Source: Bdellovibrionales bacterium (lineage in GTDB: Bacteria > Bdellovibrionota > UBA1018). Taken from it: a stretch of 64,000 bases of DNA. Of this stretch, positions 48,056 through 61,075 are shown in pieces. The notes under the pieces are model-generated. The model saw nothing but the letters and a program-made list of their open reading frames with translations, made no database searches and was not told where the DNA came from. Location: NCBI GenBank assembly GCA_016786465.1, contig JAEUWC010000008.1:1-64000 (forward strand), given 5' to 3'. Position 1 is the first letter of the stretch. Each line of letters starts with the position of its first letter. The position numbers and the translations under genes are program-made.

Positions 48056-49162
48056 ATGAAATGTTTTGACAAAGGAATTGCTTGGGTAGGCCATGCACTT
48101 TTAGTTTGTGTTTTGGCCACCGCCTGCGAAACGCCGGTGTCAGTGCTTCAAGAAACGATTCCTTTCGGATCTTCGGAATGCCGATATGGCGGCACGCGGG
48201 TGACGACCGTCGACGCGGACGATAGAAAGACCAGCTACGTTTCTTGTTCGGCGTTTTCGTGTCCCACTTTTGATCCCTTCGTCTTGGATTCGGAAGCGTG
48301 CTGGGCTTCAACTCATGCTTATTTGACTTCGGCCTGGGCGCCTTCACTTGCGTCAGCTTTTGCGATTCTTGAAGGGTCAGGCGATGTTTTGGTTTGGGAC
48401 AACAAAATCATTCGCAAAGTATCGGCTTCTTCAGGGGCGACGACTGAATTTTGGAGGATCGAAGATATTTTCCCTGGGGTTCATAATCACATCGGTGCCG
48501 TCTTACCTTTGGGTGACAGAATCTACGTTCGTACGGCTCTTGATACCGCGATTAGCGCGAATTCGACTCAGCGTTTTGGCTACTTGGATCCTTCCGGCGG
48601 ATACCATTCCATCGTTGTCGCCGGAGTCCCCGAGTTCGGCTACGGCGAATCATACATGACGGCTTTGGATGCAAACACCATTTACATGCGTAAAGGCGGC
48701 GGAACCGGCGTGATGAAGGTGACGCCTTCGGGTGAACGCGTAGACATTTCGCTCAATGGCGATTCGGTTTTGGGTCCGATCAAAGTCGATCGGTTGCGTC
48801 GGCGCTTGTACTATTCCGACGGAACGCGCCAGATTCGCTATGTGAAGCTGGATTCAGCGGGCTTGCCGGTTTCTCCCGTCGTGCCGCTGACGCGGTTTTC
48901 ATATCCGATCATGAACGGCAGTGGACAGCTGGGTGGATCTATCGAGATCAACGAGAAAACCGGTGATGTTTATATGATTTGCGTGCGTGGGGGGCCTTTG
49001 CCTTGCCATGAAGGGTCAGTTTTCCGTTTCAAAGACGGAAGCTTGTTTCCAGTTCTGGACGCTTCGATCACGGCACGGGCCATTTCGTTGGCGGGCGGCG
49101 GCGACACGCTATACGTGATTGATTCGGCGGGCGCGGTCAGAAAGCTTTTCGTTTCGCCTTAA
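48056..49162 (+). CDS. Predicted lipoprotein, possibly beta-propeller
   Basis: This 368-residue protein has a signal peptide ending in lipobox LATAC near residue 24. The mature part is beta-rich, with repeated short strands of the type VWDNKIIRKVSASSG, RIYVRTALDTA, RRLYYSDGTRQIRYVKLD and GDTLYVIDSAGAVRKL, reminiscent of NHL/YWTD-like propeller blades. No catalytic motif is visible. The N-terminal mature region contains several cysteines that may form disulfides. It starts four bases after rlmN stops. Confidence 0.7.
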   Translation: MKCFDKGIAWVGHALLVCVLATACETPVSVLQETIPFGSSECRYGGTRVTTVDADDRKTSYVSCSAFSCPTFDPFVLDSEACWASTHAYLTSAWAPSLASAFAILEGSGDVLVWDNKIIRKVSASSGATTEFWRIEDIFPGVHNHIGAVLPLGDRIYVRTALDTAISANSTQRFGYLDPSGGYHSIVVAGVPEFGYGESYMTALDANTIYMRKGGGTGVMKVTPSGERVDISLNGDSVLGPIKVDRLRRRLYYSDGTRQIRYVKLDSAGLPVSPVVPLTRFSYPIMNGSGQLGGSIEINEKTGDVYMICVRGGPLPCHEGSVFRFKDGSLFPVLDASITARAISLAGGGDTLYVIDSAGAVRKLFVSP

Positions 49163-49175
49163 ACGCTTTGTCCGT

Positions 49176-51827
49176 TTACGCCGCGTCTTCCAACGTCACG
49201 TTGATCTGAACGGGTTCCGATGATTCGACCGCGGCGACAGGTGCCGGTGTTCCGCCAGCTTGGGCGAATAGGGCGTCGACGGCATTCTGCCGGGTCTGTG
49301 GCGCAGCTTTTTTCTGACCGCCGGCTTGCTTTGCGCCGATCGCAACTACGTCTGCCACTGGATCATCAGTGATCGGTGCAATATTGCGCTCGTCCTTCAA
49401 GGCTTCAGTCAGTTGCTTAACCATGATCGAAGTATCCACTTCGGCAACGATGTCATTTGCAGTAGGCAATTCGTGATTCACCGGCCCTGGCGCTGCTCCG
49501 CGAGGAACCGGAGCCGGTGCAGGGGTTGCCCCCAGCGACGAAAGCGTTGCACTTGGGATGGCAAGTTCCAGATCGGCCGGTGTGTACGTGGCTAACACTG
49601 GAGCCGCTTGGACCGGTGCCGGCGCGGGTGCCGCTTTTTGAACCGGCGCCTGAGCAGTAGCCTGCACGGGGGCCGAAGCTGCGACCGGCTTTGCAGCCGG
49701 CATGTCGGTGATGCGTTCCACCTGAATTGAAGATTTCGAATTGAAAGCTACGGGTGCTGCCGCAGGTAGGTGATCAAAAGACGGAACGGCTAGTTCTTCG
49801 GTTTCACCACCAGCTGTGGGCGAAAAAGATGCCGGTTGTTCCGTCGCAGTCGAAGCAAACGAAGGAACCACCAATTCGGCAACTTCCATCGCAGCCGGTT
49901 CTGCCGCAGCAGCGGGCGCGGCTTTTGGTGCGGATTTCTTTTCTTCTTTCTTGGAAACTTTTCTTTCTTCCTTTTTGGCGGCAGCAGGTTGCAGGGCTAT
50001 TGCTGGAAGGGGCGGAGGTGTCGGAGCATTGCGATTCACAAAACCCGTTTCGCCCGTGGTTCCGGTTTCTGGCGGAATAAATTCGTAGCCAGGGCGGAAG
50101 CCGATGACTTCATAAACGGCAACTTCTTCGTTCTTGCCCTTCACCTTGGTGCTACCGCGAGGCATGCAGTGAATATGTTCTTTGATTTCGTTGTAAGTTT
50201 CGCCGCTGATCAAGATATCCGTTTTGAATTCCTTAGTCAGCGATTCCATACGCGAGGTCAAGTTCACGGCGTCACCTAGGATGGTGTATTCCATCCTTTC
50301 AGGAGATCCGATGTTTCCTGCGACGACGTCGCCGGTGTTCATCCCCATCCCAATTGCGATTGCGGGCTTTCCCTTGGACATCTGGTCGGCGTTGAAGCGC
50401 ACCATTTCAGCACGCATTCGGATGGCAGCAGCAACAGCGCGTAGGCTGTCGTTTCCATATACGACTGGGGTTCCGTAGACGGCCATGATGGCGTCACCGA
50501 CGTATTTGTCGACGACTCCGCCGTGGGCGAAAATAATGCGAACCATTCGGGTCATGTAAGCGTTAACCAATTCGACGACTTGTTCTGGCTGAAGCTTTTC
50601 AGACAAAGTAGTGAATGAACGAATATCAGAAAAGAAGATCGTCACGCGCTTGCGTTCTCCGACCAGGTTCAGTTCACCCGAAAGAATTTTATCGGCAACG
50701 TCCTTCGAGTGGAATTTAGAGAATGCGTTTTTAATCTTTTCACGTTCAGCTAGACCCGTGGCCATTTCGTTAAATGAAACGGTCAAGTCGCCAATTTCGT
50801 CGTTCGCGCCCTTTTTCAAGGTGACATCGTATTCGCCACGGGAAATCTTTGCGGTGGCGTCGACTAGCCGAACCAGAGGGGTCGTCAGTGACAAGCTAAA
50901 GAAATAGATCAGCGCAAACGCCACGACTCCGACAATTCCGGTGACCAAGATCGAAATTTTTCGGACCCGATTGGCAGCTTCCAGGGCCTTTGCTTCTTCG
51001 ACCTGAGAAACGACGCCAATGCCCCCGAATCCAACCGTTTTGAAGGCGCCCAACAGAACCTTCTGGGTATCGGGGTCCGTGAAACGGGTTTGACCGTTGT
51101 TGGATTTTCCCGAAAGAAGCTGTTTCACGATTTCTAGGTTTGAAAGGTTTTCTTTCTTCAAAACCCGGCTTTGGTCCGGGTGAGCAAGCAATGATCCGGT
51201 AGAATCGACCAGGTAACTTAAAATGAAGCTGTCGTTTGAAACGGCCTTCAAGAAGCGATCTTGTTTCACGGTCGCTACGACCGCGTGAGTGATCGCACCT
51301 TTATCATCTTGGATCAAAGGCAAGGTGACCAGTAGCAGCGGAATCTTTCCCTTGATGTCAAAGCTTTGAATGGTTTCTTTGGGCGAGAACGCCAGGGCCG
51401 GATCCACTTTGTCTTGGATCTGGTTGATTTCGTCACGGGTCAGATCCAAAGCCTTGATGACGGCGTCGTTAGCCGCGTTTGCCACCTGGGTCACGACCTT
51501 GGCTTCCGTTTGGGTCAAAACCGAAGCTGAAATGAATTCTTTGTCGTTTTCAAAGAAGGGCTTTTGAAGCGATTCCATTTGCGCTGCCGGAAGCGGCTGC
51601 ATCATGGTGACGCCGACCAGTCGCAATTTTTCAGTCAAGTTCTTGACGTCGTTTTGAACTTCCTGGGCAAGAAGGCGCGCCGATTCCAGGTTCGCTTCTT
51701 GGATTCGAGCAATATTGTCTTTTGAAAACAAGTCGGTGGACGAAATGACGATCGCTCCTGCAGCGCCCAAAAGGACGGCATTGATCATGCCCACTAGTTT
51801 TGTCCGAATGCTGAGACGGACCTTCAT
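49176..51827 (-). CDS. Sensor adenylate/guanylate cyclase (Cache-HAMP-cyclase) with long Pro/Ala-rich tail
   Basis: From ATG 51827 this is 883 residues. It has an N-terminal membrane helix, a periplasmic Cache-like sensor at about 40-290, a second helix (IVGVVAFALIYFFSLSL), HAMP, then a class III cyclase domain at about 390-570. In that domain, FFSDIRSFTTLSE and KYVGDAIMAVYGTP carry the metal aspartates, and GDAVNLTSRMESLT follows. The last 280 residues are disordered, alanine/proline-rich, with three similar motifs (ELVVPSF, ELAVPSF, ELAIPSA) and a C-terminal AVDALFAQAGG. It likely makes cAMP in response to a periplasmic signal. It is divergent from the FecR/Fn3 gene. Confidence 0.9.
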   Translation of the reverse strand: MKVRLSIRTKLVGMINAVLLGAAGAIVISSTDLFSKDNIARIQEANLESARLLAQEVQNDVKNLTEKLRLVGVTMMQPLPAAQMESLQKPFFENDKEFISASVLTQTEAKVVTQVANAANDAVIKALDLTRDEINQIQDKVDPALAFSPKETIQSFDIKGKIPLLLVTLPLIQDDKGAITHAVVATVKQDRFLKAVSNDSFILSYLVDSTGSLLAHPDQSRVLKKENLSNLEIVKQLLSGKSNNGQTRFTDPDTQKVLLGAFKTVGFGGIGVVSQVEEAKALEAANRVRKISILVTGIVGVVAFALIYFFSLSLTTPLVRLVDATAKISRGEYDVTLKKGANDEIGDLTVSFNEMATGLAEREKIKNAFSKFHSKDVADKILSGELNLVGERKRVTIFFSDIRSFTTLSEKLQPEQVVELVNAYMTRMVRIIFAHGGVVDKYVGDAIMAVYGTPVVYGNDSLRAVAAAIRMRAEMVRFNADQMSKGKPAIAIGMGMNTGDVVAGNIGSPERMEYTILGDAVNLTSRMESLTKEFKTDILISGETYNEIKEHIHCMPRGSTKVKGKNEEVAVYEVIGFRPGYEFIPPETGTTGETGFVNRNAPTPPPLPAIALQPAAAKKEERKVSKKEEKKSAPKAAPAAAAEPAAMEVAELVVPSFASTATEQPASFSPTAGGETEELAVPSFDHLPAAAPVAFNSKSSIQVERITDMPAAKPVAASAPVQATAQAPVQKAAPAPAPVQAAPVLATYTPADLELAIPSATLSSLGATPAPAPVPRGAAPGPVNHELPTANDIVAEVDTSIMVKQLTEALKDERNIAPITDDPVADVVAIGAKQAGGQKKAAPQTRQNAVDALFAQAGGTPAPVAAVESSEPVQINVTLEDAA

Positions 51828-51928
51828 AGTCTTTCGTATCGGTGGCGATACCCAATCCGTTAACAATTTTATTCTTGGCCTTTTTTCTTACATTGCGCAC
51901 TCGTTCATCCGAAGAGGAAGAGACGGGA

Positions 51929-54523
51929 GTGTCTCTAGTGGAACTAGTCAAGTCTGCAAAATCCGAATCGCTGCTAGTCGTCGCGTTCTGCGCGTTGAGC
52001 CTTTTTGTATTGGGCAAGATGATCAACGACGAACTGGTGCGCAAGCGTGCTGCAGACGGATCGCGTGCGGTTGTCGCGAAGCTTTCGTTAACCGAAAAAA
52101 CGGTTCAGCGAAAACTGGATCGCGAAGTGCTTTGGGATGACATGGCGGTTGACGAACTTCTGTACCAAAAAGACGCAGTTCGAACCAGCGAGCAAAGCCG
52201 CGCAAAAATTACATTTGATGATGGGACGATTCTGGAATTGGCTGAAAATTCTTTGGTCGTTTTGGATCGAAGCGATGACAAGCTGAATGTCGAATTCGTC
52301 AAGGGATCGATTTCGGCTGCAGGCGGCGGCCAAGCAGGACACGGAATCGCCATTCAGACCCAGAACGGAAAAGTCGAACTGGGCGACGGCGCAGGTGGAA
52401 AAGGTGCGCTGAACCTGACTTCAGGAAGCGCAGGTCTGGAATTGACAGTTTTGGAAGGTGCCGCAAAAGTGAAAACGGCATCGGGTGAAGCGCAGATCGG
52501 TAAAGACGAAAAAGGAAAGCTGGGTGCAGGTGGTGGTCTTCAAAAGCAGAAGGTCACGATCAAGCCCGAGCTTCCGATGCCGGCTTCGCGATTCATTGCT
52601 GAAAGTAAGACCATCAAGGTTCCGTTTTCTTGGCAACTGGCAGCTGACGCAGTCGCTGGGGCCAAGGTCCGTCTTCAGATTTCGCAAGACACCGAATTTA
52701 CAAAAGGGGTGACTGGCCGTTTGCCGGCTCCTGGTGCAAAGCAAATCGAGCTAGAAATGGCCGAAGGGACTTACTACTGGCGCGCTCAGATCATTGATGC
52801 TGACGGAAAAGCCCTGGAACAAACCGAACCCCGTCTTTTCCGTGTTCAGAAGCATTCACTTGCGCAGCTGGATGCGCCGGCTGCATCCGACGAAATATCC
52901 TTCTTTAAGGATCGACCCGTGGTTCAGTTTTCCTGGAGAACGGGTTCAGCCGAAGGCGGAATCGAACGCGTCGAGGTTTCAGACAATAAAGACTTTTCAA
53001 AGCCCTTGGTGCTGAAGCCGACACGGGGATTGGCTGAAAAAACGGGCTTGATGCAAAAAGTTCGTGAAGCGAAGTGGGACCAGTTCGTTCCGGGCAAGTA
53101 CTTCTGGCGAGTCGTGACCCGCTATGAAGGAACCGGCGCCGAAGCCAAGAATCCGATCGAACTGATGTCAGAAACGCGGACCTTTTCTGTGGCTCAGCTA
53201 GCGAAGCTTCCTGTGCCGACACTTTTGGAACCCAAGGCCGGAACATCTTTCGGAATGCAACAGGACGGAGCAAAGATCGCTTTCCGTTGGAAGAGAATTG
53301 CCGAAGCCAAGTCGTATCGTTTGACCTTGGCGTCGGATGAAAAGTTTAAGAATGCGATTAGGACGCAAACCGTAACCACGCCAGAATGGGACACGGTCTT
53401 GGATCAACCCGGAAAATTGTTTTGGAAAGTCGAAGCGATCGCGGACGACCAATCCAGCGAAGCAACGAACGGCCGAGTTTTCCAAATCGTTCGCGCGGGC
53501 GGCTTTAAGACTCTTGCGCCTAAGAAACAAGAAACCTTCAGCTTCCTAGGCAAGAAACCCAAGATTCAATTCAAGTGGGAAGCCCAAACCGGCGCAGAAA
53601 AGTATGAAGTTCAGTTTTCGCGCAATACCGCATTCAAAGACGTGATCTTTGATGATCGCGTGAAGGTTTCGGATCCAAAGCAAAGAGAATTCGCGTTTGA
53701 AACCGACGAAATTCCAGCCGGGGAAGTCTTTTGGCGCGTTCGCGCGCTGTCGCCAAACGGTGACGTACTGGCGCTGAGCGAAACGGCAAACTTTGCCATG
53801 AAGGAATCACCAGTCCTTGCTGCGCCAGAAAAGGTGAATCCGGCGGGCGCGGCTGTGATCCCAGCCGATCCAACACCGAAGGTGAAGTTTGAATGGAAAA
53901 CTGTTGCCGGAGCCAAGGCGTATCAATTCGAGCTTTGGAAGAAAGAAAGTTCGGGCAAACTTGAAAAGGATTGGAACAAGGAAATCGACGCAGCTTTTGT
54001 CGAAAAGAAGCTAGACGCCGGTAGCTATCAGTGGACGGTCCGAAGCATCGATCAAGCGGGACGTGTCGGCGCTGCAAGTCCGGCACGCGTCTTGGTCGTC
54101 AAATTTGGCGATCGCTTGGCGGCTCCGAAAGTTCTATTCCCAGCCGCCAACCAAAAGATCGAAAAGCCGGAACCCGAGACCATCAAGCTGAAGTGGGAAA
54201 GCGTGGATGGTGCGAAAGCTTACGAAGTGATTGTTGAAAAAACGGGCGCCGACGGGAAGACCGAAACGGTCGTTCGCGAAAAGACGACGGATCGTTCATT
54301 TGTTCTGCCCGAGTCCACCGGAAGCGGAAGCTACAGTTGGAAGGTGGTTCCAGTGGGGATTCCTCCGCACCTGAAAGACGACCCAAAACTTGGCGTAGAA
54401 AAGCCGGGTGAAGCTGCAAGTGGCCGCTTTGAAGTGAAATGGACTTCGGTCCTAGCTGCGCCATCTAAAGTGAAGATTCGTCTAGAAGCCGACCGAGTCC
54501 CAGCCGGAGGTGCGACGAAATGA
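51929..54523 (+). CDS. FecR-domain protein with six Fn3-like repeats
   Basis: From GTG 51929, which has AGAGGA upstream, the protein is 864 residues; GTG 51842 is the longest alternative. A single helix (LLVVAFCALSLFVLGKM) anchors it in the inner membrane. A FecR-like domain follows (LLYQKDAVRTSEQSRAKITF, then DDGTILELAENSLVVL and VEFVKGSIS), then a lysine-rich linker. Six beta repeats have the Fn3-like core pattern of FxWxxxxGAxxYxxxxS followed by YxWRVxxxD. It is not next to a sigma factor or TonB receptor, so it is not a classic FecR regulator. It overlaps the beta-barrel gene by four bases. Confidence 0.85.
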   Translation: MSLVELVKSAKSESLLVVAFCALSLFVLGKMINDELVRKRAADGSRAVVAKLSLTEKTVQRKLDREVLWDDMAVDELLYQKDAVRTSEQSRAKITFDDGTILELAENSLVVLDRSDDKLNVEFVKGSISAAGGGQAGHGIAIQTQNGKVELGDGAGGKGALNLTSGSAGLELTVLEGAAKVKTASGEAQIGKDEKGKLGAGGGLQKQKVTIKPELPMPASRFIAESKTIKVPFSWQLAADAVAGAKVRLQISQDTEFTKGVTGRLPAPGAKQIELEMAEGTYYWRAQIIDADGKALEQTEPRLFRVQKHSLAQLDAPAASDEISFFKDRPVVQFSWRTGSAEGGIERVEVSDNKDFSKPLVLKPTRGLAEKTGLMQKVREAKWDQFVPGKYFWRVVTRYEGTGAEAKNPIELMSETRTFSVAQLAKLPVPTLLEPKAGTSFGMQQDGAKIAFRWKRIAEAKSYRLTLASDEKFKNAIRTQTVTTPEWDTVLDQPGKLFWKVEAIADDQSSEATNGRVFQIVRAGGFKTLAPKKQETFSFLGKKPKIQFKWEAQTGAEKYEVQFSRNTAFKDVIFDDRVKVSDPKQREFAFETDEIPAGEVFWRVRALSPNGDVLALSETANFAMKESPVLAAPEKVNPAGAAVIPADPTPKVKFEWKTVAGAKAYQFELWKKESSGKLEKDWNKEIDAAFVEKKLDAGSYQWTVRSIDQAGRVGAASPARVLVVKFGDRLAAPKVLFPAANQKIEKPEPETIKLKWESVDGAKAYEVIVEKTGADGKTETVVREKTTDRSFVLPESTGSGSYSWKVVPVGIPPHLKDDPKLGVEKPGEAASGRFEVKWTSVLAAPSKVKIRLEADRVPAGGATK

Positions 54524-56904
54524 CGTTGAGCCGCCCTTGGCGCAGAATGATTCTGATCAGTGCGATCGTGGCTACGATTGCGGGTCAAGCTGCGTGGGCC
54601 GGTGACGAAATGCTTCGCGCGCTGCGCGTGGATTGGGAACCGATTGAAGGCGCCGTCAAGTACGAGCTTCATCGGTTTTCAGACGCCGGTTGCAAGGAAT
54701 CCGTAGATAAAGTCGAAGTGAAGACAAACTTCTGGGAAAGTCGACTGGACGCCGGCCAGTACTGCGTCCGCATTCGCGGCGTCAGTTCAGACGGTGTAAA
54801 GGGCCAGTGGTCTGAAGCCCAGAAGATTGAAGTACGGCCCAAGCCACCCAAAGAACTGGTTCGCGACGGCACGGAACTTAAATGGGACGAGACCCCAAAA
54901 GCATCGAAATACATGGTTTCGGTGAAAGACCCTCAGGGTAAAGTCGTTTGGTCCCAAGAAGTGAAAAAGCCAAAAGTCGAAATTCCTGCAAGCTTGGCTG
55001 AAAAGGCTGGGGAAGCGGCAACCCAGTGGACGGTAGGTGTTCAAGCCGTTGTTCCCGGCGTTTCGCCATCGGTTGCCACCGAGGGCACCGCTTTTGATCC
55101 ATCACAGATTCCATCGCTTCAACTTTCGGATGGTTCAGCTGTGACGTACCAGGTTCCAAAGGCGGCAACGCCAGAAGCGGGAAATTATTTCGTCCCAACC
55201 AAACAAGCACCGCTTGCGCGCCAAATTGGCGGAAGCAACCAGGAAGCTGCAAGCGCCGCAGTTGAACGCTTAAAGATCTATGCTCCAAGTTTCCCCAAAG
55301 CCCCAAAAGTAGCGATGGCGCTTCCCCCAGAAGAAGCCGTGAAGCGCTACCAGTCTTTGGGCGAAAAGCCGGTTCCACCCAGCCAAGAAGAATGGAAGCA
55401 GGCGCAAACACCCGATGAAAAAGAAAGCTTAAAGCGACGAACAGTCGCAAGTCAGCGGATTGAACTTTTAGATCGCATTGACCGGTCCAAGGCACCCGAT
55501 TTGACTTTCACCGGTCAGATTCAGTCAGGTGGGATGGATTTTGATTCTGATGTCCCAGGTCGCACAAATGCCAACAGCAGCGATAGTCGCATGGGGTATT
55601 CGCTGGGTGTGGATTACAATCGCAACCGCCCATGGGGTGCCTATGCGCGTTGGTCTCGAATTCCTTTAGCAGTGGACGGTATTTCGACGGCAGCCCAGTG
55701 GTTCTCAGTGGGCGGAGAATACCACTTGATGCTGGATTCGATCGGAGAATCGCTTCTGACCTTGGGTGTGGGTTTGGGTTATGCGCGCTTTCCACTGATT
55801 TTGGATTTTTCTACGACGGGCGGGTCTCAGGCTCGGTTTTCGTACCCGATTGCACTTTGGGGACTTGACGCCAAAATCGAATACGAATTTCGATTCACGA
55901 CCAAGTTCAGCGCACTGGCGGGCTTGCATATGTTCTTTGCGCACACGCAGGGCAACTTAAGCGACGTTCTTCCCACCGCAAACGGCACGGTGACCCAATT
56001 TCAAATTGCCGGTCAATACGCCTTGAACAAGCAAGTGGATCTTGGACTTGGCTTTATGTCCAACGGCGCAAGTGCGCAAACAACCAGTTTTGGCCTAAGC
56101 AGCCGCTATCAGCAAAGCAGCGTTCAAGCCTATGCTTCTTTCCGGTTGAATCCGCGCGAACTTCGCGGACCAGCTTCAATCGATGAAAGCGGGCGATTCA
56201 AACTTCTTTTCAGTCTGCCCGTGGGCGGACGTACATCGGTGATTCGTTCAAATCCAACCGGTGCGAATGATCTGGGCGTTTCTGATCCAAGGACTTTGCA
56301 GCCGTACAATACGTCGAACTTTGTTGCGGGATTTGATCTTGGCCTTCAATACCTTCCTTCGCCAGAATCCCCTTTGTGGGTGGACGGTACATTTCAAATG
56401 CAGAATGTGACCACTTCCAGTGCAGCTGTGGTGGAAACCGACGTGCGCGTGAAAGCGGGGCTCGACAGTCCGTTTTTAGGAAGCCGTAGCACGCGTCTTA
56501 GGTACGGCGGGGGCGTGTTCACGCGATCCGTCGGCGATCGTAACCAGGACATTCAGACCGGAATTCGCTCGACAGGTCTTTTGGGAACTGCAGAACTTTC
56601 GCGAATCTGGCCAAAAGGCTGGGATTCTAAGCTAGCCATGCAGTTCGGGATGCCGCTTTTGATGAGCGCAACCAGCGGTCCAATGTCTCAAGATTCAGCA
56701 ACCACGTCGGACGGCGCCAATTTCTTTTGGAGCGCATCTTTCGGGGGTTCCTACCAGATTTCAAGATCCTGGTCCTTACTTGGGATCGTGACCTACGAAC
56801 AGCTTCGCATGGGGCTGGTCGGTTCACGCGTCAACGTAGAACGCAGCCAAGCGATCGACTTTGAAGAAACTCGCTTCCGTTTGGGCCTTCAGTTCCGCTG
56901 GTAA
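54520..56904 (+). CDS. Outer-membrane beta-barrel protein with N-terminal Fn3-like domains
   Basis: This 794-residue protein has a signal peptide (cleavage near AAWAGD, residue 28). Two Fn3-like domains follow (RVDWEPIEGAVKYELHRFSD and LKWDETPKASKYMVSVKDP types). A linker rich in proline and lysine leads to a beta-barrel region from about residue 320. The barrel shows alternating strands with glycine/aromatic edges (YSLGVDYNRNRPWGAYARWS, then LLTLGVGLGYARF) and a terminal strand FRLGLQFRW. It should sit in the outer membrane with the Fn3 part in the periplasm, where it could meet the Fn3 repeats of its partner. It overlaps the convergent lipoprotein gene by 16 bp. Confidence 0.8.
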   Translation: MTLSRPWRRMILISAIVATIAGQAAWAGDEMLRALRVDWEPIEGAVKYELHRFSDAGCKESVDKVEVKTNFWESRLDAGQYCVRIRGVSSDGVKGQWSEAQKIEVRPKPPKELVRDGTELKWDETPKASKYMVSVKDPQGKVVWSQEVKKPKVEIPASLAEKAGEAATQWTVGVQAVVPGVSPSVATEGTAFDPSQIPSLQLSDGSAVTYQVPKAATPEAGNYFVPTKQAPLARQIGGSNQEAASAAVERLKIYAPSFPKAPKVAMALPPEEAVKRYQSLGEKPVPPSQEEWKQAQTPDEKESLKRRTVASQRIELLDRIDRSKAPDLTFTGQIQSGGMDFDSDVPGRTNANSSDSRMGYSLGVDYNRNRPWGAYARWSRIPLAVDGISTAAQWFSVGGEYHLMLDSIGESLLTLGVGLGYARFPLILDFSTTGGSQARFSYPIALWGLDAKIEYEFRFTTKFSALAGLHMFFAHTQGNLSDVLPTANGTVTQFQIAGQYALNKQVDLGLGFMSNGASAQTTSFGLSSRYQQSSVQAYASFRLNPRELRGPASIDESGRFKLLFSLPVGGRTSVIRSNPTGANDLGVSDPRTLQPYNTSNFVAGFDLGLQYLPSPESPLWVDGTFQMQNVTTSSAAVVETDVRVKAGLDSPFLGSRSTRLRYGGGVFTRSVGDRNQDIQTGIRSTGLLGTAELSRIWPKGWDSKLAMQFGMPLLMSATSGPMSQDSATTSDGANFFWSASFGGSYQISRSWSLLGIVTYEQLRMGLVGSRVNVERSQAIDFEETRFRLGLQFRW

Positions 56905-57261: not shown

Positions 57262-58422
57262 TTAGAACATGAACTTCTTGTTCGCGATATTGGTCAGGAT
57301 TCCGACTCCGAGCATGGCCGTGATCAATGCCGATCCTCCATAACTGAGGAACGGAAGTGGTACACCCACGATCGGAAGAAGGCCCATGACCATGCCCATA
57401 TTCACGACGATGTGCCAGAAAAAAATCATGAGAATCCCAAGCGAAAGCAGCATCCCGAACTTGTCGTGAGACTGGTAGGCGATTTGGACTCCGTTGGACA
57501 AAAAGAAAAGGTACGCAATCAGAAGTGCCGCGCAACCCAGGAATCCCCAGTCTTCACTAAAAACAGAAAAAATAAAGTCGGTGTGGTGTTCGGGCAGAAA
57601 GTTCAATTGGCTTTGAGTGCCTTTTTTCCACCCTTTCCCAGTGAGCTGGCCACTGCCGACAGCGATCATGGATTGGATCGAGTTGTAACCGGATCCCCTG
57701 GGGTCAGCCATTGGATTGATAAATGAGATCACTCGCTGCTTTTGGTAGGGCTTTAGCGCAAAACGGTAGGCCAGCGGTAAAGCCGTGGCCACCGTGACGG
57801 CGATGATCAAAAGAGTTCTGGTTTCGATTTTTAAAAAAAGCATCATGCTTCCGAATACCAAAAGCAAAATCATAGCGGTTCCCAGATCGGGTTGCGCCAT
57901 GATCAAAAGTGCCGGAACACCGACCAGTAGCGCCGGCAGTGCCATTTCCCTGAGCGTGTAACCGCTGGTCGTTCGATCGGTTTCAAAAAATTTCGCAAGC
58001 CCGATCACCATGGAAAGTTTCATGAACTCGGATGGTTGAAACCGCACGGGACCAAAACCGATCCAGCGCTGAGCTCCCAGGCTGGACTTACCGACGAAGA
58101 AGACGGCAACCAAAAGCAGAAGGTTCAAAAAGTAGATCAGGTAAGCCACCCGAGACAGAAATGAATAATGAAAAAGGAAAATCAGAATGGCGGTCAAAAC
58201 CAAGCCCACGCCAAAGTACGCCAACTGAGTTTTGAACAGGCCCTGCGACTTGTCTTCAACGGCGGTCGCCGAAACCAGGTTGACGATTCCGATGAAAAAA
58301 AGAAACAGCTCGATGCTGATCATCGTCCAGTTGTAACGAGAAAGCTCGTCATCGCCCGTACTATTGGACAGCGAAAACCGAGGCTGATCCTGAGGGGTTT
58401 CCATGGTGGAATGGGTACTCAT
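57262..58422 (-). CDS. rodA: RodA, SEDS-family peptidoglycan glycosyltransferase
   Basis: This 386-residue protein has about 10 membrane helices. Typical SEDS sequences are present: [57 protein letters not shown] and [16 protein letters not shown]. RodA polymerises lipid II during lateral wall growth together with PBP2. The N-terminal cytoplasmic tail is about 30 residues. It overlaps mrdA by four bases. Confidence 0.96.
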
Positions 58423-60506
58423 TCGTCGTCTCCCTCTGAGTTTTCTGATTCCTGCGGCATCACTGCATCCGGATGAGGCGGAGCAGGTGGTGCAGGAACA
58501 GGTTCCGTACGAACGGTGGAATCCGCGTTCACCGTCACACCTTCTTCTTCAACTTGTTTGATCTTTGCAGGAAGACCGCGTTCTTTGCCTTCAGCCTTGA
58601 TCCGTGCTGCAAGGACTTTTTCTCCGTACAGATCAGGATAGTATTTTTCTAGGTACTTTTTGATCACGGCACGTCCGATGGGTGCGGCACCGCCCGATCC
58701 CGAGCAAACGTGTTCGCCGATGACGGAAACGGCGATGACCGGATCTTTCACCGGAGCAAAGCCTGCAAACATTCCATGGTGGCGGTCCTTGTACTTCATG
58801 TTTTGGCACTTCTGATAAATCTTGTCGGCTGCGATTCGCATGACCTGAACGGTGCCGGTTTTGCCGGCGAAATCCATTCCGGGCAGCCGTTGTGCTGCCG
58901 CGGTTCCATTGGGTCGATTGATCACGCCCCAAAGTCCCTGCTTGATCAGTTCGTAAGTTCGTGGCGAAAGCTGATGGCGGTCAATGGATTCAGGCTTGAA
59001 GTGTTGAAGAATCTGTCCTTCGTACGATTCGATTTCTTTGACCAGGAAGGGGCGATACAAAATGCCACCATTTGCGATTGAAGCATAAAGGTTGGCCAGC
59101 TGAAGTCCGGTGGTCAAAACAAAGCTTTGGCCGATGGCGACCGAAAGCGATTCACCGCCGTTCCAAACTTGGTTAAATCGCTTTTTCTTCCATTCTTCTG
59201 TCGGGATCAATCCGGCCGTTTCACGCGCCAGTTGAATACCGGTCTTTTTGCCCAAGCCCAAATGAAACGCCCATTTCGCGATATCGTCGACACTTTTTAG
59301 TTTCTGGGCCACCCGATAAAAAAAGACGTCGCAAGAAAGGGTGATCGCATCGACCACGTTGACGTTGCCATGCCCGTTTTTCTTATGGCAGTGGTACGCC
59401 CGATTCCCCATCCAGATCACACCCGGGCAATTGAACTTGGTGTTTTCGTCGATGACCTTTTCTTCTAGTCCCGCAATCGCCGTCACAATCTTAAAGGTTG
59501 ACCCGGGCGGATAGTGATCCTGAATGGTCTTGTCGCCTAGGGGACGGTTTTCGTTATTCAGAAGGCTTTGCCAAAGCTGAGGAGGAATCCCGCGTGAAAA
59601 TTCGGTTGGATCAAAAGAAGGGCGTGAAATCATGGCCAGGATTTCGCCGCTGCGAGGATCAATCGCGACGAGCGATCCGGATTTATCACCAAAGGCTTTG
59701 GCAGCTTCTAACTGCAAATCTTGGTCAATCGTCAGAACCAGGTTTTTTCCAGGGACACTGGCGCGTTCCAAAGTGGGATCGACCAAGCGGTTCTTCGTGC
59801 GGGTCAGCTTGATTCGTCCCATGGCGTCGACTTCGACCAGGCGTTCGCCGTCGATTCCGCGAAGGATGTCTTCAAGTTGTTGTTCCAACCCGAATTTTCC
59901 GATCGAATCGCCCAGTTTATATTTCAGCGCCTTTTTGTTCAGTCGTGGAAGTTCGACGGTGTTGACTTCGCCGATGTAGCCCAGAAGGTGGGCAGCGACG
60001 TCGCCAAAAAGATTGGTGCGCTTGATTTCTTCCTGGATCTGAACGCCGGGCATGTCGATCTTCCAGACTTCGACTTGCGCGACTTCGTCGCGAGTCAGGT
60101 CGTTCTTGATCTTGACCGGAAGAAAAGACGCCTGACTTTTGGATTTATCCAAAATTTCTTGGATTTCCTTTTCAGGCATCTTGATGATCTTGGAAAGTTT
60201 CGCAATGACTGCTTCCGTTTTTTTGGATTCGCGCAGGTACTGGGGAATGATTTCCAGATCGAAAGCGGGGCGGTTATCGATTAAAAGGCGGCGGTTGCGG
60301 TCGAAAATCATTCCGCGGGGTGCAGCAACCTTCACGCGCTTGATTCGATTTTCTTCCGAAAACATTCGCATGCGATCCCCTTGCAAAAGTTGCAAGTGAA
60401 CCATTCGGCCCAGCAAAATTCCCAAGCCCAGGAACATGGCCGCGTACAAGAACTTGAAACGGTCTTGAAGTTCTCGGATCTGTTCTTCTTGGCCTAAGAA
60501 TGCCAT
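58419..60506 (-). CDS. mrdA: Penicillin-binding protein 2 (elongation transpeptidase)
   Basis: This 695-residue class B PBP has one N-terminal membrane helix ([20 protein letters not shown]), a pedestal domain, and transpeptidase motifs STFK (Ser336-Lys339), SCD (391-393) and KTG (549-551). The C-terminal 60 residues are acidic and proline-rich, an unusual tail ([12 protein letters not shown]). It cross-links new peptidoglycan made by RodA. It starts two bases after mreD and overlaps rodA by four. Confidence 0.96.
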
Positions 60507-60508
60507 GG

Positions 60509-61075
60509 CTAGTACGATCCTCCGTCCCAGATGATTTCATCATCTAATAGGTGGAAAGCACGGTGTGATTTGTAAGTCTTTCGATCAAACCATTCCAGCC
60601 AGGGAAGCAGGAACCATGCTGAAGCCCCCGTCGCAAGGGCGCTTGGGATTAGATTGATAAAGAAATGGTGAAGCGGGGCAGTCCCAAGTCCTAAGTACCC
60701 CAGCAAAGCTAAGTTCAAAATTTTCCAGGCGGCAACTGATCCCATGCAAAGAAGCACCAGCGAACTTCGATTTGGAAGAACTAAGGCGTGCGCTGCGATC
60801 CGAATCAGGAAAAAAACCAGAATGTAAGTCAGCAAGAAGGTCCCCTGAGGGGCTGCCGAATGAATTTCCATCAGGTACGCAAAAATCAGGGTCAGAATTC
60901 CGCCTTCGTAAAACGACCGTTCCAGGCCGCACCAAACCACAGCCAACAAAACCCAGTCAGGCTGAAGCGTCTTCATCAAAGGAAGCTGAAATAAAGACGT
61001 CTGGAGCGCGACCACCAGGATCACACTTAAAACAAAGAGCCACGGATTCAGGATTCGTAAAACAATCCGGGTCAT
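60509..61075 (-). CDS. mreD: Rod shape-determining protein MreD
   Basis: This 188-residue integral membrane protein has 5-6 helices. Its position between mreC and mrdA, its length and stretches such as PDWVLLAVVWCGLERSFYEG and the acidic loop with EIHSAAPQGTFLLTYIL support the assignment. MreD links MreC and the wall synthases at the inner membrane. It shares an ATGA overlap with mreC. Confidence 0.9.
   Translation of the reverse strand: MTRIVLRILNPWLFVLSVILVVALQTSLFQLPLMKTLQPDWVLLAVVWCGLERSFYEGGILTLIFAYLMEIHSAAPQGTFLLTYILVFFLIRIAAHALVLPNRSSLVLLCMGSVAAWKILNLALLGYLGLGTAPLHHFFINLIPSALATGASAWFLLPWLEWFDRKTYKSHRAFHLLDDEIIWDGGSY

Follow-up and report, generated by a model that had tools for sequence, protein, structure and literature searches.

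A predicted trans-envelope receptor module linking a dCache-HAMP adenylate cyclase to a FecR-Fn3 protein and a candidate outer-membrane barrel in Bdellovibrionota and Spirochaetota

The cyclase, FecR-Fn3 and Fn3/beta-barrel genes in the window (the whole 64,000-nucleotide stretch of DNA analysed) likely encode a single trans-envelope receptor, for which we infer the protein contacts, the orientation across the wall, the direction of the signal and the ligand. Frame translation placed the three-gene locus where the initial annotation had put it and, together with the coordinates, bore out that the cyclase gene is divergent from a two-gene FecR/barrel unit (Table 1).

The three proteins and their surroundings

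The cyclase gene probably starts at ATG 51827, as set by alignment with its ortholog in a relative, genome G001 (MKVRFNIRTKL). CHASE2 was absent from the protein, and Pfam gives dCache and HAMP instead. Class III adenylate cyclases employ a metal-binding Asp pair, an adenine-selecting Lys and transition-state Asn and Arg residues. D414, D458, K454, T528, N535 and R539 of the cyclase are invariant among 15 relatives; we take D414 and D458 to be the metal Asp pair, K454 the adenine-selecting Lys and N535 and R539 the transition-state residues, while T528 is at the class IIIb position, forming with K454 the substrate-selecting positions. The solved structures nearest to the catalytic domain are the bacterial adenylate cyclases 2w01 and CyaB (3r5g). 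Because the catalytic residues are invariant, Lys454 and Thr528 are in place and the nearest relatives are CyaB and 2w01, the protein is predicted to be a class IIIb adenylate cyclase. A Pro/Ala/Lys-rich C-terminal tail of roughly 300 residues (49179-50090, minus strand) is missing in the closest ortholog, that of G001, which ends at about residue 631. The source genome encodes eight cNMP-binding proteins, which are available as cAMP readers, and in it another class III cyclase gene (C13:87533-88795) is immediately followed on its strand by a cNMP-binding domain.

Table 1. Coordinates of the three-gene locus in the window and the evidence for each feature
Feature	Position	Strand	Evidence or remark
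dCache-HAMP class III adenylate cyclase (predicted), 883 aa	49176..51827	-	domains and alignment with the G001 ortholog
Cyclase catalytic domain	50121..50651	-	Pfam Guanylate_cyc E 4e-30
HAMP linker	50751..50903	-	Pfam HAMP E 6.3e-12
Periplasmic dCache sensor region	50961..51707	-	Pfam dCache_1 E 1.9e-5 (below Pfam's cut-off), Cache_3-Cache_2 E 0.039
Divergent intergenic region, 101 bp	51828..51928	.	between cyclase ATG 51827 and FecR GTG 51929
FecR-Fn3 protein, 864 aa, inner-membrane anchored (predicted)	51929..54523	+	Pfam, model, comparison of starts
N-terminal transmembrane helix core	51968..52024	+	no clear signal-peptidase site
FecR domain PF04773	52172..52465	+	E 2.7e-10, over cut-off
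Fn3-like repeat 1	52562..52852	+	repeat HMM E 6.8e-15 and AlphaFold2 model
Fn3-like repeat 2	52862..53197	+	repeat HMM E 2e-12
Fn3-like repeat 3	53213..53494	+	repeat HMM E 7.3e-22
Fn3-like repeat 4	53507..53806	+	repeat HMM E 1.9e-20
Fn3-like repeat 5	53822..54106	+	repeat HMM E 3.7e-19
Fn3-like repeat 6	54122..54379	+	repeat HMM E 1.8e-14
ATGA overlap, FecR stop and barrel start	54520..54523	+	
Fn3/beta-barrel protein, 794 aa	54520..56904	+	
Signal peptide, AxA type, ending AWA	54520..54600	+	
Two Fn3-like domains, residues ~29-193	54604..55098	+	repeat HMM E 4e-14 and 6.5e-4; model strands
Predicted outer-membrane beta-barrel, ~19 strands, two halves	55498..56898	+	AlphaFold2, Foldseek, weak Pfam OMP_b-brl

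The start of the FecR protein is probably GTG 51929; the helix then comes after 13 residues, as in the G001 ortholog, and the divergent genes therefore stand 101 bp apart. A scan of this region found no sigma-70-like promoter match, nothing exceeding the shuffles. The initial annotation had placed six Fn3-like repeats on a FecR protein of the inner membrane, and PF04773, one N-terminal helix and exactly six repeats were indeed found, the repeat HMM having been seeded with the protein's own six repeats and then extended on relatives. In the AlphaFold2 model (mean pLDDT 85), a transmembrane helix and the FecR domain are followed by several beta-sandwiches in a row, and the model resembles tandem Ig/Fn3 ectodomains (Foldseek, E 1e-17). 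LysM had no match in the protein, nor among the families listed for 105 FecR N-terminal regions. Throughout the FecR family, aromatic and Asp residues are conserved directly after the N-terminal helix, with no clear signal-peptidase site, whereas the third (barrel) proteins carry ordinary signal peptides. A crude signal-peptide count under a loose rule did not separate the FecR and third proteins, so the anchoring rests on the helix model and the conserved residues behind the helix.

A FecR domain and an inner-membrane helix also both belong to a Fec-type pathway, in which the FecR protein would be the anti-sigma factor of an ECF sigma factor encoded elsewhere, and the cyclase would be unrelated. 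However, the helix is preceded by about 13 residues, compared with 73 in the FecR-like anti-sigma factor LIC_12756 (PMC12155086), and this N-terminal stretch matches no Pfam domain and no anti-sigma domain. In addition, the immediate neighbours examined (rlmN, a lipoprotein-like gene, rodA, mrdA and mreD) include neither a sigma factor nor a TonB receptor, in keeping with the earlier statement that the usual partners of a FecR gene are absent beside it, and the partner conserved over two phyla is the sensor. A canonical FecI/FecR system is ruled out by the lack of an anti-sigma part and of a sigma factor among these neighbours, and the Fec-type reading as a whole is largely refuted and can be given hardly any credence.

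The lipoprotein-like gene (48056-49162, plus strand; 368 aa, with a lipoprotein-like N-terminus) lies between rlmN and the cyclase gene, 13 bp from the cyclase stop, and its product has no match in Pfam or NCBIfam. Behind the barrel gene and convergent with it are the elongasome genes rodA and mrdA (PBP2) and a weak mreD match (57262-61075, minus strand); ORFs with sizes matching these genes occupy the same position in G001.

As to the third protein, which had been annotated as an outer-membrane barrel with two Fn3 domains, exactly two Fn3 domains were borne out and a signal peptide was found, while the barrel is a low-confidence prediction. In the AlphaFold2 model (mean pLDDT 65), the two Fn3 domains are followed by a helical linker and then by about 19 strands, with confidence low in the second half especially. 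The strands resemble FadL/OmpG-type outer-membrane barrels (Foldseek E 4e-8, with low TM-scores), and the C-terminal residue is Trp. The barrel (within 54520-56904) appears doubled, with 10 + 9 strands, in comparison with the shorter barrels of relatives.

Linkage in two phyla and exchange of the output domain

When 58 genomes of relatives were searched with the cyclase/sensor alone as the query, a FecR gene was found close by at 31 of 32 sensor loci (adjacent at 30, 4.2 kb away at one), and the remaining locus was interrupted by a contig end. Full-length cyclase relatives (E<1e-100) accounted for 15 loci, all with FecR at the locus and 14 with FecR adjacent; at the 17 loci with non-cyclase sensors, which match the Cache-HAMP half only, FecR was adjacent in 16, the last being the contig end. 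The 4.2 kb gap is that of G001, where a MoxR-ATPase/unknown/TgpA-transglutaminase operon (L060:4148-8190) lies between cyclase and FecR. Neighbours were called with an HMM built from the FecR part alone, Fn3 segments excluded, and FecR was independently confirmed by Pfam in 84 of 105 of them. Five FecR genes occur in the 3.6 Mb of the source genome, so that a chance FecR neighbour is expected in well under 1% of cases; three of the five adjoin Cache-HAMP sensors, and the other two cyclases of this genome are on contigs with no FecR match.

A scan of GTDB species was performed with the cyclase alignment as the query, and the best 80 loci were assessed. Among the matches listed, most, and of the best 80 nearly all, are from Spirochaetota (Treponema, Leptospiraceae, Turneriella, Alkalispirochaeta and others) and Bdellovibrionota, and FecR is at the locus in 72 of the best 80. 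The eight loci with no FecR comprise six from other or unnamed lineages (Wallbacteria, Rokubacteriota, Desulfuromonadales, Myxococcales, an uncultured delta proteobacterium and an unnamed bacterium), one at a contig end (L147) and one true exception, a sensor in Bdellovibrionia without FecR nearby (L112). In spirochaetes, FecR is usually downstream of the cyclase gene, co-directional and overlapping it, and a signal-peptide/Fn3/barrel gene often comes after FecR, which gives the order cyclase-FecR-barrel in one direction. In one genome of the relatives (G030), no sensor adjoins the FecR/barrel pair, and an NHL-repeat protein is encoded beside the pair in its place. The two linkage counts rule out chance adjacency of sensor and FecR. 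The initial annotation had predicted co-occurrence in relatives and had taken its absence to speak against the proposal; the searches did not refute it, and co-occurrence held far beyond the expected range, into a second phylum.

The output of the Cache-HAMP sensors was a cyclase at 84 loci, a histidine kinase at 14 and a SpoIIE phosphatase at 5, and paralogous modules retain the sensor and FecR while differing in this output. The source genome holds one of each, namely the cyclase of the window, a histidine kinase module on contig C4 (L057) and a SpoIIE module on contig C11 (L056). In L057 and L074, the two histidine kinase modules with neighbours scanned, a REC-HK gene and a REC-REC-TPR gene come after the sensor. 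Behind the FecR-barrel gene of L057, a glycine-rich protein of 518 aa (L057:7878-9434) is encoded, which has no Pfam match.

Sensor and FecR distances were found to be correlated (Mantel test, r 0.82, n=91; r 0.87 for 34 modules of relatives), and when FecR partners were shuffled within a genome, the mean r was 0.28 and the maximum 0.74, with 0 of 2000 shuffles reaching the observed r of 0.87. Since linked genes co-inherit without touching, the Mantel test does not distinguish contact from linkage, and the correlation shows one unit rather than contact. Moreover, the sensor tree (support 1.0) and the FecR tree (0.99) both nest the SpoIIE modules L087 and L092 with one set of four cyclase modules, and therefore the output domain was exchanged without separating sensor and FecR. 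A signalling interface between FecR and Cache would lead one to expect such an exchange, and linkage alone would also suffice, so that it is support for this interface and not proof.

Fused forms and a proposed path of a signal across the envelope

Some relatives of the FecR protein carry additional C-terminal tails. The FecR protein of the SpoIIE module in the source genome (L056, 1092 aa) begins with the helix and the FecR domain, continues with six Fn3 repeats and ends in a tail of 264 residues, for which hhalign gives an alignment with the separate barrel family (80%, E 1.4e-5). The FecR proteins of the histidine kinase type have tails of ~170-360 residues with alternating strands, and an aromatic C-terminal residue (F/W/Y) is present in 6 of 9 complete tails of this type, or in 7 of 11 when the SpoIIE fusions are included. 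These histidine kinase-type tails are termed barrel-like from their length, strand pattern and C-terminal aromatics, the statistical barrel match being that of L056 only. Pfam found almost nothing in the fused C-terminal tails, with one weak OMP_b-brl_2 match, and hhalign did not significantly align the two kinds of tail with each other (5.9%). By a Rosetta-stone argument, the fused forms support the separate FecR-Fn3 and barrel proteins belonging to one assembly. It is also conceivable, at a little under an even chance, that the fused paralogs (the 1092-aa protein on C11 and those of the histidine kinase modules) are a covalent tie between inner and outer membrane that drives interchangeable outputs, and that the window holds the same machine split in two.

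The proposal that both membranes are bridged is thus supported in one part, as relatives have FecR, Fn3 and barrel in one polypeptide, and not in another, as some modules have a FecR protein with a single Fn3 repeat, so that strict bridging by the Fn3 rod does not hold throughout. One Fn3 domain measures about 3-4 nm, and six Fn3 domains plus FecR would reach ~25 nm, close to a typical periplasm. According to the repeat HMM, the number of Fn3 repeats per FecR protein ranges from 0 to 14, so that in several modules Fn3 by itself would be too short to cross the periplasm; the same variation rules out a 'ruler' of fixed Fn3 length. The longest rods are in FecR proteins with 14 (L170:2137-7080) and 11 (L122:5952-10043) repeats.

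In the proposed mechanism, the barrel protein would sit in the outer membrane with its Fn3 domains facing the periplasm and would contact the Fn3 rod of the FecR protein, which would be held by a single inner-membrane helix and have no anti-sigma part. A surface ligand, or strain on the bridge or its occupancy, may alter the FecR domain near the inner membrane, and this domain may act on the periplasmic dCache domain of the cyclase; HAMP would then relay the change to the catalytic dimer, resulting in more or less cAMP, to which the cNMP-binding proteins would respond. The initial annotation had the cyclase reading a related signal, and it more probably reads the FecR/barrel complex itself.

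Relation to known systems and possible ties to spirochaete adhesins

The functional precedent for the barrel-cyclase combination is NsrA of Sinorhizobium meliloti, a large outer-membrane protein with a beta-barrel portion at aa 600-1200, which is required by the inner-membrane CHASE2 cyclases CyaK, CyaD1 and CyaD2 for the response to an outside protein signal (PMC7529298, PMC13001267). Both systems pair an outer-membrane barrel partner, here predicted, with an inner-membrane class III cyclase; ours differs in that the sensor is dCache-HAMP and not CHASE2, and in that a FecR-Fn3 protein of its own, anchored in the inner membrane, makes up the periplasmic part. CHASE2 sensors with FecR partners have been described in Burkholderia (PMC5192318) and Campylobacterota (PMC9239204). 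The FecR/CHASE2 cyclase system of the latter (PMC9239204) likewise combines a sensor cyclase with a genetically linked envelope protein of the FecR type, but with a CHASE2 sensor, other partners, no Fn3 rod reported and in another phylum. In the Burkholderia BiofilmReg operon, a LysM-FecR protein is encoded beside a CHASE2 histidine kinase (PMC5192318), and in magnetotactic bacteria MtxA, an Ig/Fn3-fold protein, is encoded beside a CHASE2 cyclase (PMC4439547). These resemble our locus in having a periplasmic FecR or Ig/Fn3-fold protein beside a kinase or cyclase sensor, whereas the present module is without LysM and CHASE2, and no barrel partner is reported for either of them. The Pfam family MtxA_IG-like had weak matches in 7 of 53 third genes. 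Ferric citrate signalling by FecA-FecR-FecI resembles the proposed module in that an outer-membrane receptor acts via a periplasmic FecR domain anchored in the inner membrane, but here the anti-sigma part is missing, no ECF sigma factor or TonB receptor was found among the neighbours examined, and the output is a cyclase, phosphatase or kinase. The module thus differs from the FecR/CHASE2, NsrA-CyaK and FecA-FecR systems in its own sensor family (dCache), Fn3 rod, split genes and lack of an anti-sigma part, and no account of a dCache/FecR-Fn3 module came up when the open literature was searched.

Generally, dCache domains bind small ligands themselves, which counts against the receptor reading and speaks for another, in which the barrel/FecR-Fn3 pair serves as an adhesin or strut of the surface or envelope, while the cyclase reads its own small ligand via dCache and controls expression of the pair, with no protein-to-protein signal. 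The spirochaete loci also point this way, since the LIC11435_fam model (NCBIfam NF047756) matches third genes at loci from Leptospiraceae and Treponema putidum (E 8e-45, 1e-31 and 5e-15); its scores are 153 and 110 bits for the Leptospiraceae third genes and 15.3 for the window's barrel protein, all below the curated cut-off of 380 bits. We take Tp0485 to be a cyclase, and judged by locus number, Tp0483-0485 and LIC11435-11437 appear to be possible parts of the module. Besides the third-gene matches, the likeness to the LIC11435 family and Tp0483-Tp0484 is drawn from Tp0484, which is annotated as FecR (PMC5951579), the link being by locus number. Tp0483, numbered next to it, binds fibronectin and laminin (PMC10118025), and LIC11436, numbered next to LIC11435, is a confirmed fibronectin binder that raises binding when expressed in a saprophyte (PMC11350617). 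Against an adhesin or strut with an independent cyclase stand the exchange of the output while sensor and FecR are kept, the overlap of sensor and FecR genes in spirochaetes and the NsrA-CyaK precedent, all of which favour signal transfer; we regard this reading as unlikely, at perhaps one chance in a handful.

The fibronectin binding reported for LIC11436, probably the FecR member by its locus number, would also suit a surface-exposed Fn3 rod, threaded through or docked on the barrel, which responds to contact with, for example, prey, host matrix or a neighbour. This is quite improbable, as the uncleaved inner-membrane helix with the FecR domain straight after it places the base of the rod at the inner membrane, a rod of 5-7 repeats just barely covers the periplasm, and LIC11436 was assigned by locus number and not by sequence.

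Read as one trans-envelope receptor, the locus would represent a module common to two diderm phyla, which turns an outside event into cAMP, phosphatase or kinase signalling and thereby addresses a poorly understood step, the transfer of a signal across two membranes and the wall. The one-gene fused versions allow physical bridging to be examined directly. Moreover, Tp0483 and LIC11436, which have been studied solely as fibronectin-binding adhesins, would gain a second reading, as components of a signalling receptor, if the locus assignment holds.
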